A stretch of DNA of 34,288 bases. Origin: Prevotella sp. GTDB lineage: Bacteria > Bacteroidota > Bacteroidia > Bacteroidales > Bacteroidaceae. Of the stretch, positions 11,436 to 34,095 are shown in pieces. A program made the position numbers and the translations under genes. The stretch covers positions 1 to 34,288 of the forward strand of contig JAFPVW010000077.1 in the NCBI GenBank assembly GCA_017395215.1. Reading direction: 5' to 3'. Under the pieces are notes generated by a model. The model was not told the DNA's origin, searched no databases, and saw only the letters and a list, made by a program, of their open reading frames with translations. Every line of letters begins with the position of its first letter. Position 1 is the first letter of the stretch.

Positions 11436-14081
11436 TTAAATGATTTCCATCTGTGAGGTTTCTATCCAGCCCTCCTTGCCGTCGGCCACGCGGATGCGCT
11501 TCCACTGGCGCATGGTGCCGTCGGTAATATCGACCTTCGTACCCTCATGGAGGATGAAGAGGTCGGTGCCCTGCTTGGCTGGCGTACTCTTGACGGTTGC
11601 TGCGGGCGCCATGATGATGGCACCGCTACGGTTAGTAAGGCTCTGCTTCTGAGCATAGGCAAAGAAGTTGGAGCAGACGAAGAACACCAACAGGAAGAGG
11701 GCGCCGAAGAAGCCCAGCTTGCGCAGCCACACGGGCGAGGCGAAGAGATAGACCAGTGCCAGCACGATAGCCAGCGCCAGGGCGACAAGTGCCAGCCGTG
11801 CCCAGCCGTCGACGCTGGTCAGGTTGACCAACGAGTGGTACCAGGTGACGAAGAACATCTCCGACTCGGGCGTAATCTTGTCGATGGTCTTCGAGCGGGC
11901 CATCTGCAGGTTGAAGCGCACGTCGCGGTCGCCGGGCGAGAGCAGCAGGGCGCGCTCGTAGTTAAGGACGGCACGCGGCATCTCGTCCATACGGTAGTAG
12001 GCATTGCCTAAGTTGTAGTAGAGGTCGCTGCTGACACCCTGCTTCAGCAGAGCCTCGTAGTCGTTGACGGCCTGCTGGTAGTGTCCCTGGGCGTAGGCGC
12101 TGTCGGCCTCGGCCTTGGTCACGGCTGAAGCTGAGAGCGGCAGCAGCAACGCCAACAGCAGGAGCATGGCCGACTTGGCGGGACGGCGCTTCCTGACGTT
12201 ATTCTCAATAGTCGTTATCGCCGTCATGGCGGCTTCGAATACCTTATTCATATTTCCTGTCGGGTCGCCTGGGGCATAACGGGCATACTCGCACTCGTCG
12301 ATGGCCCCGATAAACTGCTGGATGGTATCGGCGCTGACGTTGTGGCTGTCAAGCTGCTGACTGATATTCTCGCGCGAGAGCTGCTCAACGGGGATGTTCA
12401 GCTTGTCGCCGACGTAGCCCCAGAGAGCGCGCAGCACCTCGTCGTAGAACTCCGACGGCTTGTTGTCCTTCATCAAGCGCGAGGCCTTCTTCAGGCGCTT
12501 CGTAGCCACCTTATTGGCACGACCGGCACGCTGGCCGACAATGTCGGCACCGGCAATGGCGCGCTGGCGGAAGATGACGAACAGCGAGATAAAGATGAGA
12601 GCCAGGACGGCTAACGACGTCCAGTAGCCCGTGCTGCCGAAGAAGGTGTCGGTAAGGGAGTCGCTGACTGCGCTGTCGGCTGTCTTGATATAGCGGATGT
12701 CCTTGTTCAGCAGTTTCAGGTCTTCCTGACCGGTGTAGTCGCTGACGGACGAAGCGCTGCCGTCGCCCTTCTGCACATTAAGCGTGAAGGCTTCGGTCTT
12801 GGCGGTCTTGTAGCTGTTCGACCCCGTGTCGTAGTAGGTGAACTCTACGGGCGGAATCTCGAACTTGCCCGGATGACGGGGTACGGCAAGGAAGTCGTAA
12901 ATCATGGATCCCTCGACGCCGTTGACCGTCAGCTTTGACTTGTCGGTCACCTTGGCATCGTACTTGTCGAAGTCCTTGGGGAACTCTACGACGGGCTGCT
13001 TGATGAGCTTCAGGTTGCCCACACCGCTGACGGTGACACGCATCTTGACCGGCTCGTTGGCCTTTACCTCAGAGCCTTCCAGCTGGGCAGAGACGTTGAA
13101 ACGGCCCACACCGCCCGAGAAGTTGGCGGGACGTTGGGGCAGCGGGTCAACCTGTATCTCGATGCCGGGGGCCTGTATCTGCTTCTTCACCTCGACATAG
13201 CCGGAGCCGCCGTTGAAGAAGGCTTCGAAGGGGTCGATATTGCGGTTCTGCTGGATGACGATGCCATTGAACGTGATGCCGGGAATCTTCAGCTTGCCCG
13301 TAATCTGCGGGAACATCACGTACTGCGACCATGTCACCGTGCGATAGGGACGGCCGTTGACCTGCTCAATCTTGAAACTCTTCTGCTGGGGCAGCGGCAC
13401 CTCCTGGGTGTGGAAGCCGTTCAGCTCGGGCATCTTTCCCTCAAGCTGCGTCAGGTCGACGAGCGTATATACCTTATAGGTCAGCAGGATGGGCTCCTGC
13501 TCGTAGACGCGCTTCTTGTTGGCGCTGACCTTGATGAAGAGGTCGGAGCCCGAGATGGGCGAGCCGGCGGCACGGGGCTGCGGCTGCATCTGCTGTTGCT
13601 GGCGCTGGCCTCCCCCACCCTGTCCTGCCTGAGCCTGACCGGAGACCGTAATCTTCAGCGAGCTTGAGGCGATGTTCTTACCCTCAGCCGTAACATGGGC
13701 AGCGGGAATGGTGAACGTACCGTTCTTGACGGCCACGACGATATAGGTGAACGTGATGGACGACGACTGGCTGGTGTGGCCGTTGATAATCTGGAAGCTC
13801 GACTGCGACGAGCGGCTGGGGCCCATCAGCACCTCGAAGGCATCGGGGATGTCGCCAACACGGAAGTCGCTGACGTCCTGAGTGTTCACCGTGTACGAAA
13901 GCCGGAACTGTTCACCTACGGCGACATGCGACGGTGCATTGGCGGTCAGCGTCTGAGCGATAGTCTTGACAGACATGAGCAACAGACACACTGCCCACCC
14001 AAGCCCTACCCAAGGGAGGGATGTTTGAATACCAGACTGGCGGGACTTATAGATACCTGTATATAATCTGTTTCGTTTCAT
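11436..14081 (-). CDS. BatD-BatE fusion protein (Bat envelope system)
   Basis: This 881-residue protein joins two Bat proteins. The BatD part (about 45-505) has repeated Ig-like beta domains, a Gly/Gln-rich linker (about 150-172) and a membrane helix at 487-504, followed by a cytosolic segment to about 630. A second signal-peptide-like stretch (about 633-653, RRPAKSAMLLLLALLLPLSA) marks the seam. The BatE part then has TPR repeats (AYAQGHYQQAVNDYEALLKQ and onward, 655-725), two helices (about 763-809) and an SH3-like C terminus (about 815-881). Bat proteins help Bacteroides tolerate oxygen. The N-terminal signal peptide is unusual: residues 19-31 (QTSLPWVGLGWAV) are encoded by a dispersed palindromic repeat. 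An inverted copy of that repeat lies just upstream of the start. Confidence 0.9.
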   Translation of the reverse strand: MKRNRLYTGIYKSRQSGIQTSLPWVGLGWAVCLLLMSVKTIAQTLTANAPSHVAVGEQFRLSYTVNTQDVSDFRVGDIPDAFEVLMGPSRSSQSSFQIINGHTSQSSSITFTYIVVAVKNGTFTIPAAHVTAEGKNIASSSLKITVSGQAQAGQGGGGQRQQQQMQPQPRAAGSPISGSDLFIKVSANKKRVYEQEPILLTYKVYTLVDLTQLEGKMPELNGFHTQEVPLPQQKSFKIEQVNGRPYRTVTWSQYVMFPQITGKLKIPGITFNGIVIQQNRNIDPFEAFFNGGSGYVEVKKQIQAPGIEIQVDPLPQRPANFSGGVGRFNVSAQLEGSEVKANEPVKMRVTVSGVGNLKLIKQPVVEFPKDFDKYDAKVTDKSKLTVNGVEGSMIYDFLAVPRHPGKFEIPPVEFTYYDTGSNSYKTAKTEAFTLNVQKGDGSASSVSDYTGQEDLKLLNKDIRYIKTADSAVSDSLTDTFFGSTGYWTSLAVLALIFISLFVIFRQRAIAGADIVGQRAGRANKVATKRLKKASRLMKDNKPSEFYDEVLRALWGYVGDKLNIPVEQLSRENISQQLDSHNVSADTIQQFIGAIDECEYARYAPGDPTGNMNKVFEAAMTAITTIENNVRKRRPAKSAMLLLLALLLPLSASAVTKAEADSAYAQGHYQQAVNDYEALLKQGVSSDLYYNLGNAYYRMDEMPRAVLNYERALLLSPGDRDVRFNLQMARSKTIDKITPESEMFFVTWYHSLVNLTSVDGWARLALVALALAIVLALVYLFASPVWLRKLGFFGALFLLVFFVCSNFFAYAQKQSLTNRSGAIIMAPAATVKSTPAKQGTDLFILHEGTKVDITDGTMRQWKRIRVADGKEGWIETSQMEII
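13994..14026 (-). repeat. Palindromic element copy A, inside the batDE signal peptide
   Basis: On the minus strand it reads ACATCCCTCCCTTGGGTAGG followed by GCTTGGGTGGG. It is translated in frame as TSLPWVGLGW. It is the same element as copies B (14103-14138) and C (22511-22548), with only a few differences. Confidence 0.85.
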
Positions 14082-14102
14082 TTCTACGTGTTTATCTATT
14101 TA

Positions 14103-14138
14103 GACATCCCTCCCTTTGGGAGGGCTTGGGTAGGCTTT
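14103..14138 (+). repeat. Palindromic element copy B, in the batBC/batDE junction
   Basis: On the + strand it reads ACATCCCTCCCTTTGGGAGG then GCTTGGGTAGGCTTT. It begins immediately after the batBC stop codon (14141-14139) and is inverted relative to copy A, so B and A can pair in the mRNA around the batDE start. Confidence 0.85.
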
Positions 14139-15830
14139 CTACCAATTCTTTTCTATACTGCGCTTCTGCGGGCGCTGCTGGGCTTTCTTCATGCGCTCCT
14201 GCGTCTGCTTCTCCTGCTGCATGGCGGCATTCAGAAGCTGCTCGGCATTCTCCTTGCTCATCTTCGGTTCCTGCTTCTGCTGCTCTTGCTTCTGCTTGTC
14301 CTGCTGTTGTTTCTGCTGGTCCTGCTTCTGCTGGTCTTGTTTCTGCTGGTCCTTATTATCCTTGTTCTGCTGGTTCTGCTGTTGCTGCTTCTGCTGGCGC
14401 TTGCAGAGTTCAAGATTGTAGCGCGTCTCGTCGTCATGGGGATTCAGGCGCAGACTCTGCTTGTAGGCCTCAATGGCCTCGCCAAACATCTGGTGACGCT
14501 GGCAGACAACGCCCATATTGTGGTAAGCCTTCGACTTACGCAGTGGGTTGGTCTCAGTCTTGGCAGCCTTCTCGAACTCGGCCACAGCGGCAGAGTCCTT
14601 GTTCTGGAACAGCAGCGCATTTCCCAGGTTATAGGGTGCCTGCGGATTGCGGTTGTTCTTCTCTATGGCCTTGCGGTAGCTGACCTCGGCATTGGCAAAG
14701 TTACCAGCCCTGTACTGCTTGTTACCCTGACGGATAAACTGGCGGTCGGTCTGGGCACTCACGCTCATAGCCACCAGCAACAGCAGAACGGTTGCGGCGG
14801 TCTTCTTGCGGGCACCAAACAGCGACACACGCTTCAGCAGCGGGTTCTTGCTCTCAAGCAGGCAAACCTCGATGATGAGCAGCAACAAAGCCAGGATGCC
14901 AAACGCCTGGAACTGCTCGTCGTAGTCACTGTAGACAGTAGCCTTCGTCTCCTTCTTGGCCAGCTTCTCAAGTTCCTGGTCGAGCAGGTCCTGAGCATTG
15001 CTGTTGTTCTCGACATGGATATAGGCACCGCCACCGGCTGAGGCAATCTGCTTACACATATCCTCGTTGAGAGCCGACATCACCGTCTGGCCTGTATTGT
15101 CGGTCATGTAATCACCCGTATTGGGAATGGGAATCGGAGCTCCCTGCCTTGAACCGATGCCAAGCATATAGACGCGCATGTCGGCCTTCTTGGCAGCCTC
15201 GGCGGCCTCGATGGCACCACCCTCGTGGTCCTCGCCGTCGGTAATCACGATAATGGCCTTGCCAATACCCGTCTCCTGCGTAAAGCTGTGGGTGGCCATC
15301 TCGACGGCACGGGCAATGTCGGTGCCCTGAGTGGCCATCATCGACGGGTCGATACTCGACAGGAACATCTTGGCCGACACGTAGTCGCTGGTTATCGGCA
15401 GCTGCACGAAGGCATCGCCGGCAAAAACGATGAGACCAATCTTGTCGTCAGTAAAATGGTCGACCAAGTTCTCAACCATCATCTTTGCACGGTCCAGACG
15501 GCTGGGCGTCACGTCCTCAGCCCGCATGGAATTACTGATGTCCACACAGATGATGGTCTCGATGCCGTTGCGCTTCTCGTGACTGATCTTCGTACCCATC
15601 TGCGGGCGCGCAAGCATCAGGATGAGCAGGGCCAGAGCGGCCTGCAACAGCCAGAACTTCACGCCCGGGCGCCAGCGTGAGACGTCGGGCATCAGCTCCT
15701 TCAACAGTCGCGGGTCGCCAAACTTGCGCAACCGCTTCCTCTGGCTACGGTAGGTGACAAACCTGATGATTGCCAACAGCGGAATCAGCAACAGCAGGTA
15801 AAGATATATGGGGTCTTCAAATCTAAACAC
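14139..15830 (-). CDS. BatB-BatC fusion protein (VWA domain plus TPR)
   Basis: This 563-residue protein combines BatB and BatC. Two N-terminal helices (about 9-25 and 59-75) anchor it in the inner membrane. The von Willebrand A domain has the metal-binding motif DISNS (97-101) and ITDGEDHEGG. After another helix (about 308-325) comes a signal-peptide-like seam (KKTAATVLLLLVAMSVSAQ, about 343-361), then TPR repeats (362-475) and a Gln/Lys-rich segment (about 479-523). The seam looks like the former signal peptide of a separate BatC. The protein probably assembles with BatA and BatDE at the membrane under MoxR control. The stop is followed directly by palindromic element B. Confidence 0.92.
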   Translation of the reverse strand: MFRFEDPIYLYLLLLIPLLAIIRFVTYRSQRKRLRKFGDPRLLKELMPDVSRWRPGVKFWLLQAALALLILMLARPQMGTKISHEKRNGIETIICVDISNSMRAEDVTPSRLDRAKMMVENLVDHFTDDKIGLIVFAGDAFVQLPITSDYVSAKMFLSSIDPSMMATQGTDIARAVEMATHSFTQETGIGKAIIVITDGEDHEGGAIEAAEAAKKADMRVYMLGIGSRQGAPIPIPNTGDYMTDNTGQTVMSALNEDMCKQIASAGGGAYIHVENNSNAQDLLDQELEKLAKKETKATVYSDYDEQFQAFGILALLLLIIEVCLLESKNPLLKRVSLFGARKKTAATVLLLLVAMSVSAQTDRQFIRQGNKQYRAGNFANAEVSYRKAIEKNNRNPQAPYNLGNALLFQNKDSAAVAEFEKAAKTETNPLRKSKAYHNMGVVCQRHQMFGEAIEAYKQSLRLNPHDDETRYNLELCKRQQKQQQQNQQNKDNKDQQKQDQQKQDQQKQQQDKQKQEQQKQEPKMSKENAEQLLNAAMQQEKQTQERMKKAQQRPQKRSIEKNW

Positions 15831-19946: not shown

Positions 19947-21269
19947 TTATTTCTTCTTCAGTTTCTTCTTCAGTTCCAGCTTAGGAATCTTCACCGTCTT
20001 TCCGGCTTCGAGCACGGCTCCTGGCTTCAGTCCGTTATACACCTCGATATAGCACTCCATGTCAGGGCCAAGGGTGCGCTTGGACACGCGGGCCGTTGAC
20101 TCACCGGCTTTAGCGGTGACCTCGTAGTCCGTGCCAACAATGCGGTATGCACCATAGCGGACACGATTGTCCATCTCGGCATATTTGTCTGTATCAGCAG
20201 CAGGCGAAGCGGCAGGCGCGGCGGGAGGTGTAGCTGGAGGTGTAACGCGGTCTACAGGCGACTCGACGACCTCAACAGGTTTCGACGGCTCAGCCTTAAA
20301 AGCCGGAGCGTCAACGTCTTGTACCTTTGTCTTAGCTTCAACCTTGGCTGTGTCTTTCACAGGGGTCTGCTCAGTGCTGTCAGCGATTTCCTCTATCGAA
20401 GTAAAAGCATTCCCCGTCATCGACAGGCCCTTGTTCAAACCGAGGAAATAACCGCCCACAAACGAGGCGAGGCAGGCTGCGATGGCTATTGCCAGCCATG
20501 CAATAGTCTTCAGTCTTGTGTTATCTGTTTTTGTTTTCATATCCGGTTCTTCTTCATTTTCTATTATTTCCTTTTCTATCTCTTCCGTTGGTTCTTGTTG
20601 CTGCATAACCGCAAGCGGCTCTTCCGCTGGCGGCTCCTCTTCCGCTGGCGGCTCCTCTGCTGGCGGCTCTTCTGCTGGCGGCTCCTCAATAGGAGATTCT
20701 TCCACAGGCGGTTCTTCCACTGGCGGCTCTTCCACTGGCGGCTCTTCCACTGGCGGCTCTTCCACGGGCGGTTCTTCCACAGGCGGTTCTTCCACAGGAG
20801 GTTCTTCCACGGGCGGTTCTTCCACAGGAGATTCTTCCACAGGCGGTTCTTCCACGGGCGGCACTTCTACGGTTGTTTCTTCAATAGCCAGCTTTTCCTC
20901 AGTCTGCTCAGCAACGTTCGGTGCGTCGTCGAACTCAACACCTTCGTTCAAGACAACCGTCTCAAACTGTGAGAAAGGCTTGTTCACCAGCTCCTTCATC
21001 GTCGCATCAGGCGTGAAAGATATTTTCTCGTGACCTTCTATAAGCACGCGCTCACCCGTATTGACATTCACACTCTCGCGAGCCTCAATATCAATCACTT
21101 TGAAGGTTCCCAAGCCCTTGACCTTCACCAGACGGTCAGTCACCAGCCCGTCCTTCACCACTTCAAACAGCGTGGTGGCGAATCGCTCGGCATCCTTCTT
21201 CTTCAAACCACTCTTGACTGTCAGGATAGCGGATAGCTCTTGTATAGAAATACGGTCCAACACTCCCAT
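19947..21269 (-). CDS. Membrane-spanning HU-domain protein with LysM-like C terminus
   Basis: This 440-residue protein has a rare domain order. Residues 1-95 are an HU/IHF-like DNA-binding domain (LKKKDAERFATTLFEVVKDG, KGLGTFKVIDIEARESVNVN). About 15 tandem pentapeptides PPVEE, SPVEE or PPAEE follow (about 134-217). A single membrane helix lies at about 256-278 (IAWLAIAIAACLASFVGGYF). A Pro/Ala-rich linker then leads to a LysM-like domain (about 371-432, ending LKPGAVLEAGKTVKIPKL). If the N terminus is cytoplasmic, the HU domain faces DNA and the LysM domain faces the wall. The name HU-LysM is mine. Its ATG overlaps the HU stop in TAATG, and moxR follows after 27 nt. Confidence 0.87.
   Translation of the reverse strand: MGVLDRISIQELSAILTVKSGLKKKDAERFATTLFEVVKDGLVTDRLVKVKGLGTFKVIDIEARESVNVNTGERVLIEGHEKISFTPDATMKELVNKPFSQFETVVLNEGVEFDDAPNVAEQTEEKLAIEETTVEVPPVEEPPVEESPVEEPPVEEPPVEEPPVEEPPVEEPPVEEPPVEEPPVEEPPVEESPIEEPPAEEPPAEEPPAEEEPPAEEPLAVMQQQEPTEEIEKEIIENEEEPDMKTKTDNTRLKTIAWLAIAIAACLASFVGGYFLGLNKGLSMTGNAFTSIEEIADSTEQTPVKDTAKVEAKTKVQDVDAPAFKAEPSKPVEVVESPVDRVTPPATPPAAPAASPAADTDKYAEMDNRVRYGAYRIVGTDYEVTAKAGESTARVSKRTLGPDMECYIEVYNGLKPGAVLEAGKTVKIPKLELKKKLKKK
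20620..20868 (-). repeat. 15-nt tandem repeat encoding the PPVEE stretch
   Basis: The HU-LysM gene contains about 15 tandem 15-nt units (plus-strand form ACAGGCGGTTCTTCC and variants). Each codes for one pentapeptide. Near-identical neighbours suggest recent copy-number change, always in frame. Confidence 0.9.
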
Positions 21270-21587: not shown

Positions 21588-22892
21588 TTAACATTTTACC
21601 ACCTCACCATAAAGGTCAAACTCCTCTGCATCAGTAATATGCACATCGTAGAACTGACCTATCTCCAACTCGCAGTCGGCAGGAATCAGCACCTCGGGGT
21701 CGACCTCAGGCGAGCAGAACTCCGTGCGGCCCACGTAGTAGTCGCCCTCGCGGCGGTCGATGATGGTCTTCAACGTCTGTCCAATCTTGGCGGCCTCGAT
21801 CTCAGCGCTGATATTCTGCTGAACGCGCATCAGCTTGTCGAGTCGCGCCTGCTTCACGTCAGAGGGCACGTCGTCCTCGTAGTGCTCTGCCGACCAAGTA
21901 CCGTCTTCTTCAGAGTAGGCAAAGGCGCCCATACGCTCAAAGCGTGCCCACTTTGTAAACTCAATGAGCTCCTTAAAGTCCTCGTCAGTCTCGCCGGGAA
22001 AGCCCACCATCAGCGTTGTTCGCAGATGAATACTGGGCACCTCTCGGCGCAGACGTTCCACCAGCTCGTATGTCTCCTGCTTCGTCACGTGACGGCGCAT
22101 ACGGCTCAGCACCGGGTCGGAGATGTGCTGTAAGGCTATATCCAGATAGTTGCAGACGTTCTTCCGCTCGCGCATCACGTCGAACAGTTCCCAGGGGAAG
22201 TGTGCCGGGTAGGCATAGTGCAAGCGAATCCACTCCACACCCTCAATATCGGCCATCCGCGACACCAGTTCAGCAATCTTCTGCTCGCCGTAGAGGTCAA
22301 CGCCGTAGTAGGTCAGTTCCTGGGCGATAATCTGGAACTCCTTTGTGCCTTGACTGACCAGCCAGCGCACCTCACCGAGGATATCATCCATCGGACGGCT
22401 CTGGTGGCGGCCAGTTATCAGCGGTATGGCACAGTAGGCGCAATGCCTGTCGCACCCCTCACTGATTTTGACATAGGCGTAGTGGCGGGGAGTGGTCAAG
22501 TGTCTCTTCCAAACATCCCTCCCTTGGGGAGGGCTTGGGTGGGCTTTCAGGTCATCTAACAGTTTCCTATAGTTGAACTTCCCATACCACCCGTCGACCT
22601 CAGGAATTTCTTCCTCAAGCTCAGCTAAGTAACGCTCTGACAGACAGCCCATCACGTAGAGCCGCTCAATGCGCCCTTCAGTCTTTGCCTGGGCAAACTC
22701 CAGTATCGTGTTGATGCTCTCTTCCTTGGCGTCGTTGATGAAGCCGCAGGTATTGACAACGACTATTTCGCCCTGCGGATTGTCGCTGTCGTGGGTACAA
22801 TGGAAACCGTTGGCCTCCATCAGTCCCATCAGTATCTCGCTGTCAACGAGATTCTTTGAGCATCCGAGTAATATGAAATCTATCGTCTTCAA
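21588..22892 (-). CDS. rimO: Ribosomal protein S12 methylthiotransferase
   Basis: RimO adds a methylthio group to an aspartate of ribosomal protein S12 using radical chemistry. The 434-residue protein shows the N-terminal UPF0004 cysteines (Cys11, Cys49, Cys83), the radical-SAM motif CDRHCAYC (147-154) and a C-terminal TRAM domain. The protein carries an odd insert: residues about 116-128 (KAHPSPPQGRDVW), between KLLDDL and KRHLTTPRHYAY, come from palindromic element copy C. This is a linker before the radical-SAM core, where extra residues may be tolerated. It overlaps ftsY by 4 nt. Confidence 0.95.
   Translation of the reverse strand: MKTIDFILLGCSKNLVDSEILMGLMEANGFHCTHDSDNPQGEIVVVNTCGFINDAKEESINTILEFAQAKTEGRIERLYVMGCLSERYLAELEEEIPEVDGWYGKFNYRKLLDDLKAHPSPPQGRDVWKRHLTTPRHYAYVKISEGCDRHCAYCAIPLITGRHQSRPMDDILGEVRWLVSQGTKEFQIIAQELTYYGVDLYGEQKIAELVSRMADIEGVEWIRLHYAYPAHFPWELFDVMRERKNVCNYLDIALQHISDPVLSRMRRHVTKQETYELVERLRREVPSIHLRTTLMVGFPGETDEDFKELIEFTKWARFERMGAFAYSEEDGTWSAEHYEDDVPSDVKQARLDKLMRVQQNISAEIEAAKIGQTLKTIIDRREGDYYVGRTEFCSPEVDPEVLIPADCELEIGQFYDVHITDAEEFDLYGEVVKC
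22511..22548 (+). repeat. Palindromic element copy C, inside rimO
   Basis: On the + strand it reads ACATCCCTCCCTTGGGGAGG then GCTTGGGTGGGCTTTC. rimO on the minus strand translates it as KAHPSPPQGRDV. It is in the opposite orientation, relative to its gene, to copy A in batDE. Confidence 0.85.
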
Positions 22893-33841: not shown

Positions 33842-34095
33842 TCACACAGATTCTTTCATAAGTTTTTAAGTCACACAGATCTCACTGATTCCACAGATAA
33901 TCCAGAAGCCCGGAAACAGCATGAAGAACGAAGAAATCTGTGAGATCTGTGGGATCTGTGTGATCATAAGAGACAGATAAGTTTTTTGAGTCACACAGAT
34001 CTCACTGATCCCACAGATAATCCAGAAGCCCCGGAAACAGCATGAAGAACGAAGAAATCTGTGAGATCTGTGGGATCTGTGTGACCATAAGAGAG
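33842..34095. repeat. Two 120-bp tandem repeats, each with a long hairpin
   Basis: Copy 1 is about 33861-33980 and copy 2 about 33981-34095. They differ by only a few bases. A fragment of a third (TCACACAGATT) lies at 33843. Each copy contains an inverted repeat; in copy 1 the arms 33871-33898 and 33936-33963 pair at 25 of 28 positions, with a 37-nt loop. The block fills the gap between the smalltalk-like gene and the amidase, which is about 260 nt. Confidence 0.9.

Follow-up and report, generated by a model that had tools for sequence, protein, structure and literature searches.

A REPIN-like palindromic repeat that has spread through the genome of a rumen-type Prevotella sp. and through those of its relatives very probably entered the interdomain linker of rimO in frame and is translated there, and copies that keep the reading frame survive. 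The window, that is, the whole stretch of 34,288 nucleotides analysed here, belongs to a MAG of 211 contigs and 3.6 Mb that is 85% complete and 5.9% contaminated. The features at rimO are as follows.

Positions 21588..22892, minus strand: rimO, 30S ribosomal protein S12 methylthiotransferase, 434 aa, TTG start listed, frame intact.
Positions 22497..22568, minus strand: hypervariable RimO linker, residues 109–132 (between GKFNY and TTPRHY), the repeat-occupied site in the genus.
Positions 22513..22548, plus strand: solo palindromic REP-like element, a CCCTCCC TTN GGGAGGG stem-loop with a CTTGGGTGGGC tail.

The element has the sequence ACATCCCTCCCTTGGGGAGGGCTTGGGTGGGCTTTC and, read on the minus strand, stays in frame without a stop and gives LKAHPSPPQGRDV, corresponding to RimO residues ~115–127. 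The host protein is identified as RimO by NCBIfam TIGR01125 (451.9 bits, cut-off 356.95) and has a match in the solved RimO structure of Thermotoga maritima, 4jc0 (E=1.8e-92). Pfam assigns residues 6–104 to UPF0004 and residues 142–312 to Radical_SAM, and the element therefore sits between the two domains, in the linker where the earlier note had placed the repeat-encoded residues. That note had given the element as 38 bp (22511..22548); the in-frame repeat in rimO stands, and its extent is refined to 36 bp. The AlphaFold model of RimO has a mean pLDDT of 92.7, with a coil at residues 116–137 and the lowest confidence at the linker (71 for block 111–120 and 60 for block 121–130).

The same repeat occurs elsewhere in the window and throughout the genome. 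A copy 8.4 kb away is 94% identical to the rimO copy across 36 bp, and the window holds three matches to the pattern, compared with 0.00 expected from 100 dinucleotide shuffles. Genome-wide, a strict pattern (up to three mismatches) found 24 copies and a looser one found 51 matches; two of the latter, C102:226 and C210:7621, are shifted echoes of the palindrome, which leaves 49 distinct copies. The reversed pattern gave none in either search. The proposal that this is a dispersed repeat rather than a peculiarity of rimO is thus borne out, the core being present elsewhere in the genome in 24 to 49 copies. Sampling of 100 genomes of the genus gave a related pattern in 37 (reversed control, 0). 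A scan of the window against Rfam at the gathering threshold returned no match.

The copies are organised as doublets. Among 18 pairs of neighbouring copies within 150 bp, 15 are in −+ order with their GGGTGGGC tails pointing outward, two are −−, one is ++, and none is +−, and the −+ inverted doublets have a spacing of 43–115 bp. This predominance of tail-outward pairs (15/18) is a REPIN-type organisation. The rimO copy in the window is solo, with one arm kept. Ten of 14 distinct 26-mers of the repeat lack a stop in all six frames, compared with 44% of shuffles and 21% of the 26-mers of the window, so that any frame of the core is often readable; several different frames are actually used among the in-gene copies.

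Other repeats were also observed in the window. At 625–679, between ORFs, lies a terminator-like inverted repeat of 26 bp with 96% complementarity and a loop of 3 bp. A tandem repeat with a 15-bp period and 16 register copies occupies an ORF region at 20578–20937, and two direct copies ~120 bp apart, with inverted GATCTGTG/CACAGATC arms, lie near the window end at 33863–34094.

The RimO linker is nearly constant outside the genus and highly variable within it. In other Bacteroidales genera it has 32 residues in 26 of 27 readable rimO genes and 31 in the remaining one, and none of the 27 has a LKAHPSPPQGRDV-type sequence; this set consists of the 29 best-matching loci from a search of 79 genomes, 27 of them readable. 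Across the genus the linker ranges from 28 to 89 residues. It has 30–57 residues in 80 named loci, all 80 of which are readable with the final pattern and 26 of which are at 32 residues, 28–53 residues in the best 30 genus matches of another draw, and 89 residues in G059, where it consists of a full doublet with repeated tails. This maximum is the only value taken from 20 extra rimO stretches, which were mostly picked as long or split. Since L114 and L161 come from one MAG, the 80 rows are not 80 separate species.

The linker of the window has 35 residues, a net gain of three codons over the length usual in the order, which indicates that the element mostly replaced the old linker rather than just lengthening it. 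In-frame full doublets of the window's own family are present in rimO of L082, L084, L085, and L089, and a single arm of such a doublet in that of L083. The motif PSP[PT]xGRD occurs in six of 157 readable linkers, which were pooled from two collections with some species in both, and all six have the DNA repeat. RimO homologues lacking the DNA repeat accordingly lack these residues, within the genus as in the other genera (0/27), as the earlier note would have it. Four of the 80 loci come from records whose titles name an isolate or strain (L104, L110, L119, and L133), and these have a 32-residue linker and no repeat; the repeat-bearing linkers come from records titled as MAG or uncultured.

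Copies lie inside many genes other than rimO. The count of in-gene copies that the earlier note had called for gave 17 of 49, all in frame within ten genes recognised by Pfam or NCBIfam, and a further three of the 49 lie inside long ORFs without a good family match. The ten genes are rimO, gltB, dnaG, a gyrB-like gene, those for a sodium:solute symporter and a DUF5107/TPR protein, mfd (four copies), a uvrA-like gene (three), and those for a MatE-family transporter (two) and an ABC permease/ATPase (two). The mfd, uvrA-like, and gyrB-like matches are below the NCBIfam curated cut-offs, and at least two of them are contig-edge fragments.

Empty sites are found in relatives. The site of a 19-residue gltB insert is empty in all five relatives aligned, and those of two more gltB inserts are empty in four of five, the inserts being common to the genome of L085. 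The gyrB-like insert is likewise missing from five of five relatives. A ~60-residue insert in mfd is missing in the four loci aligned, one of which has a short degenerate repeat there. Alignments of mfd and of the uvrA-like gene are interrupted at the inserts in seven of seven genomes searched, the uvrA homologues compared being only about 40–48% identical, and dnaG showed no length difference from the relatives aligned. When filled and empty sites of gltB, the gyrB-like gene, and mfd were compared by eye, no target-site duplication, as a MITE with terminal inverted repeats would leave, was definable because the flanks have diverged. As a separate observation, the Mfd ORF of L165 (G000:C53) has a second, different insert at residues ~546–579, a run of SGNSGQSGNPRQSGRPGN-like residues that gives a weak collagen-repeat score and has shorter versions in relatives.

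Other genomes show the in-gene pattern with different hosts. G081 has 17 copies, ten of them within seven genes recognised by Pfam, which encode DsbD, ArgC, a response regulator (between its two domains), a CobB/CobQ-like fusion (four copies), CbiJ-CbiD, Mfd, and cytidylate kinase. G023 has 29 copies, and of the 19 examined, seven fall within four genes, for MetK, MnmG, DnaG, and PnuC. None of the 13 copies in the single-contig genome G016 lies 30 or more codons inside an ORF of at least 300 aa, and the largest ORF with a copy there has 247 aa (ORFs taken by length). Gene invasion therefore depends on the lineage.

The earlier note had also seen two further copies of the repeat around the batDE start. 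Both are present, with the refinement that the copy at 13993–14031 is in frame within the BatD ORF:

Positions 11436..14081, minus strand: batD ORF, 881 aa; the BatD domain starts at residue 48, past the repeat-encoded residues.
Positions 13993..14031, minus strand: second copy, left arm of an inverted doublet, read in frame as part of the predicted BatD ORF.
Positions about 14097/14104..14139, plus strand: third copy, right arm of the REPIN-like doublet 13993–14139.

The doublet spans ~147 bp. The ORF start reads MKRNRLYTGIYKSRQSGIQTSLPWVGLGWAVCLLLMSVKTIAQ, and the copy at 13993–14031 encodes IQTSLPWVGLGWAV of the predicted BatD signal peptide; the copy ending at 14139 comes immediately after the stop codon of the VWA/TPR gene that precedes it. 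A repeat-derived version recurs in two of six relatives, the other four having a signal peptide of the ordinary kind. For an OEP-family lipoprotein, the signal sequence is repeat-derived in this genome and in three of five relatives. The repeat-derived starts of another lipoprotein (0/4 relatives) and of an aminotransferase (0/5) are found only here among those compared, and those of a Tat-type protein and of IspH are common to one of six and one of two relatives, respectively. The repeat-linked gene starts are predicted ones (plausible ATG), and GTG or TTG codons within the repeat are possible alternative starts. In-frame copies at predicted gene starts were observed at 13993–14031 and in L167, L015, L014, L010, L179, and L027; several start-site copies fall in lipoprotein or Sec/Tat signal sequences, and the N-terminus is ordinary in most of the relatives compared.

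The RimO linker is occupied by other repeats as well. Judged by eye, 39 of the 80 sequences have repeat-like linkers, which fall into 12 classes and a remnant class. Class A is the window's repeat and class B is another REP doublet (10 sequences); other classes have inverted GTTGAAC/GTTCAAC, ATGAG/CTCAT, or GAGAGG/CTCTCC arms, tandem units, or other forms. Eight classes, A–G and J (28 of the 39 sequences), each have more than one copy in at least one genome. The remaining four, H, I, K, and L (11 sequences), are repeat-like by eye and candidates for dispersal, and for class H the one genome searched gave no further copy among the matches listed. In 1.27 Mb of pooled flanks, linker DNA of 19 of the 80 sequences has matches, at 91 places, and eight control positions in the same rimO genes gave matches for 0–5 of 80 sequences at 0–7 places. 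With eight joined linkers as the query, the own linker repeat recurs in seven of eight whole genomes among the matches listed: at least 18 rows in L088, 5 in L135, 11 in L160, and 2 in L153, at least 2 places in L146 and 12 in L099, and at least about 30 partly overlapping rows in L151. L134 has no further copy among the matches listed.

Repeats at this site turn over from species to species. On a quick RimO tree built free of the linker, with 30 of 77 inner branches open, the repeat classes require no fewer than 32 changes, and the mere presence or absence of a repeat no fewer than 18; the class-change count is soft because many forks are open and it has no shuffled control. L097 and L135, which are strongly supported sisters on this tree, carry different repeat families.

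The recurrence of unrelated repeats at a single site, many of them forming inverted arms, could also arise if the hairpin itself were selected, with an mRNA or DNA structure at the domain boundary slowing ribosomes or regulating rimO and being rebuilt in each species. In predicted stability, 12 of 38 linkers with a repeat exceed every one of the seven control windows at the same locus, and the other 26 do not exceed all of their own controls. Repeat-free linkers are less structured than controls (mean MFE/nt −0.216 versus −0.249), with three of 41 more stable than all controls, and other families at the linker are tandem repeats without a strong hairpin. We consider selection for the hairpin improbable. 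Conserved mRNA structure as a general property of the linker was considered in its own right and is unsupported by the comparison of MFE with control windows.

We regard it as very unlikely that the repeats were misjoined during assembly or binning of MAGs. The genome is indeed a fragmented MAG (211 contigs, with the completeness and contamination given above), and the named isolates in the set have no repeat at rimO. However, 36 bp is shorter than an ordinary read, so that assembly inside rimO should be straightforward, and the frame is intact on both sides of the element. Moreover, MAGs from separate projects (L082–L085 and L089) share the element or the full doublet at the same codon, and G081 and G023 show the in-gene pattern in other genes. 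Least probable of all is ordinary drift of a low-complexity linker into a chance likeness to the repeat: although the hypervariability of the linker across the genus would suit it, as would the simple tandem repeats that make up several linkers (classes H, I, and L, which are only candidates for dispersal), such drift is at odds with 94% identity over 36 bp to a copy 8.4 kb away, with 24–49 copies genome-wide against zero in controls, and with a linker near-constant in other genera (32 residues in 26/27).

Our preferred explanation is the in-frame entry of a spreading repeat. The palindrome would insert widely across the genome, presumably by transposition, and frame-breaking copies within genes would be lost by selection. 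In rimO, insertion would have taken place at the UPF0004/radical-SAM linker and replaced most of the old linker. The element may persist there because the GC-rich core is often stop-free in six frames, because only frame-keeping copies survive selection, and because the flexible linker tolerates almost any sequence. In-frame copies would survive in flexible linkers and signal peptides, and the same process may have put repeats into linkers or loops of other housekeeping proteins, into signal peptides, and into N-termini. The needs of a signal peptide, which is hydrophobic and rich in glycine and leucine, would be met by some frames of the repeat. The open frames and conserved flanks suggest that the inserts are translated in vivo, and they are probably close to neutral.

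Palindromes that are translated tend to be regarded as a peculiarity of Rickettsia. The Rickettsia palindromic elements (RPE) of Ogata and Claverie are, from the descriptions available in PMC3733652 and PMC10969869, protein-coding palindromes with a unit of ~150 bp. The Prevotella repeat resembles them, on these descriptions, in being a dispersed palindrome that lies in frame in genes of unrelated function and would add extra residues to their products, and in having DNA repair and replication genes among its hosts. It differs from them in phylum, in sequence as far as can be told from the descriptions, and in length, the solo unit having 36 bp compared with ~150 bp (PMC10969869). In addition, inverted doublets predominate, and N-terminal and signal-peptide use is seen here. 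As the RimO motif is found only with the DNA repeat and the core is present elsewhere in the genome, protein-coding palindromes comparable to the Rickettsia elements occur in the genus. The earlier suggestion of such a case in Bacteroidales is upheld, with 17 of 49 copies in recognised genes.

Intragenic REPs outside Rickettsia have already been published. The GTAG/CGTC REPs described by Di Nocera et al. 2013 are, in the portions of that account available, found as singles and dimers inside ORFs and at gene N-termini, as here, with genes of DNA synthesis and repair (uvrA, uvrB, dnaE, and others) hosting many of them, and with REPs at the same site in recB of two Xanthomonas species (PMC3733652). 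Compared with the sites described there, the RimO linker of one genus has been taken by many unrelated repeat families. In the available text of PMC3733652, Prevotella has 0 occurrences. We found no earlier description in Prevotella or Bacteroidales in the open-access literature, which is weak evidence of absence. Within that literature, what appears to be new is the genus, the range of genes that host the repeat in a single genome, the way in which unrelated repeats overwrite one linker time after time, and the occurrence of signal peptides derived from the repeat.

The closest structural likeness is to REPINs, for which the available account gives inverted REP doublets as the common form and solo REPs as probable remnants (PMC3116915; Bertels and Rainey 2011); the Prevotella repeat shares with them many short palindromic copies and inverted doublets with a short spacer. 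A canonical REP, as described in part in PMC6006769, has a 5′ GT[AG]G foot adjoining the stem-loop, whereas here the 5′ outer end carries C[CT]AC and GT[AG]G falls on the 3′ side, as judged by eye. The same source describes in-frame REPs within the tnpA_REP gene for TnpA_REP subclass 2.4, which is abundant in Cyanobacteria and Bacteroidetes (PMC6006769). The genome under study has two Y1_Tnp genes, and the repeat flanks neither (0/2). Among 32 Y1_Tnp loci from this genome and the best-matching loci of the genus, a similar motif is present at one and a cognate RAYT at none, and the repeat-carrying G019, G023, G030, and G056 have no Y1_Tnp match. In contrast to RAYT-associated REPs, the repeat has many copies that are not extragenic, with 17 of 49 in recognised genes and three in other long ORFs. 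Because no RAYT was found flanked by it and many of its copies lie in genes, we do not file it as a RAYT-REP, its doublets notwithstanding. As a further observation, a Y1_Tnp gene in L025 (G000:C48:8075-8434, plus strand) is flanked by its own CTCACA..GGGAC(A/T)GTCCC..TGTGAG palindromes, and their layout resembles that of the RimO-linker palindrome of L146.

We put forward a broader reading tentatively. In a rumen Prevotella clade, mobile palindromes might be a routine source of new protein sequence, entering linkers of replication, repair, and metabolic enzymes and overwriting gene starts, with the loop of a REPIN giving a start codon and its arm a signal peptide or N-terminus; some sites, most of all the RimO linker, might be overwritten repeatedly by unrelated repeats, perhaps through a preference of the machinery beyond mere tolerance.

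The outcome in which palindromes are translated now appears in gut-type Bacteroidales, where many sequenced relatives make insertion, erosion, and replacement observable at single sites. The recurrence of the repeat in mfd, uvrA-like, dnaG, and gyrB-like genes, likewise reported for REPs in other phyla, becomes testable. The RimO linker, with 28–89 residues in the genus against a constant length in 26 of 27 genes elsewhere, is a natural experiment on the rewriting of a linker without loss of the enzyme, and the repeat-encoded signal peptides suggest a route from non-coding mobile DNA to functional protein.
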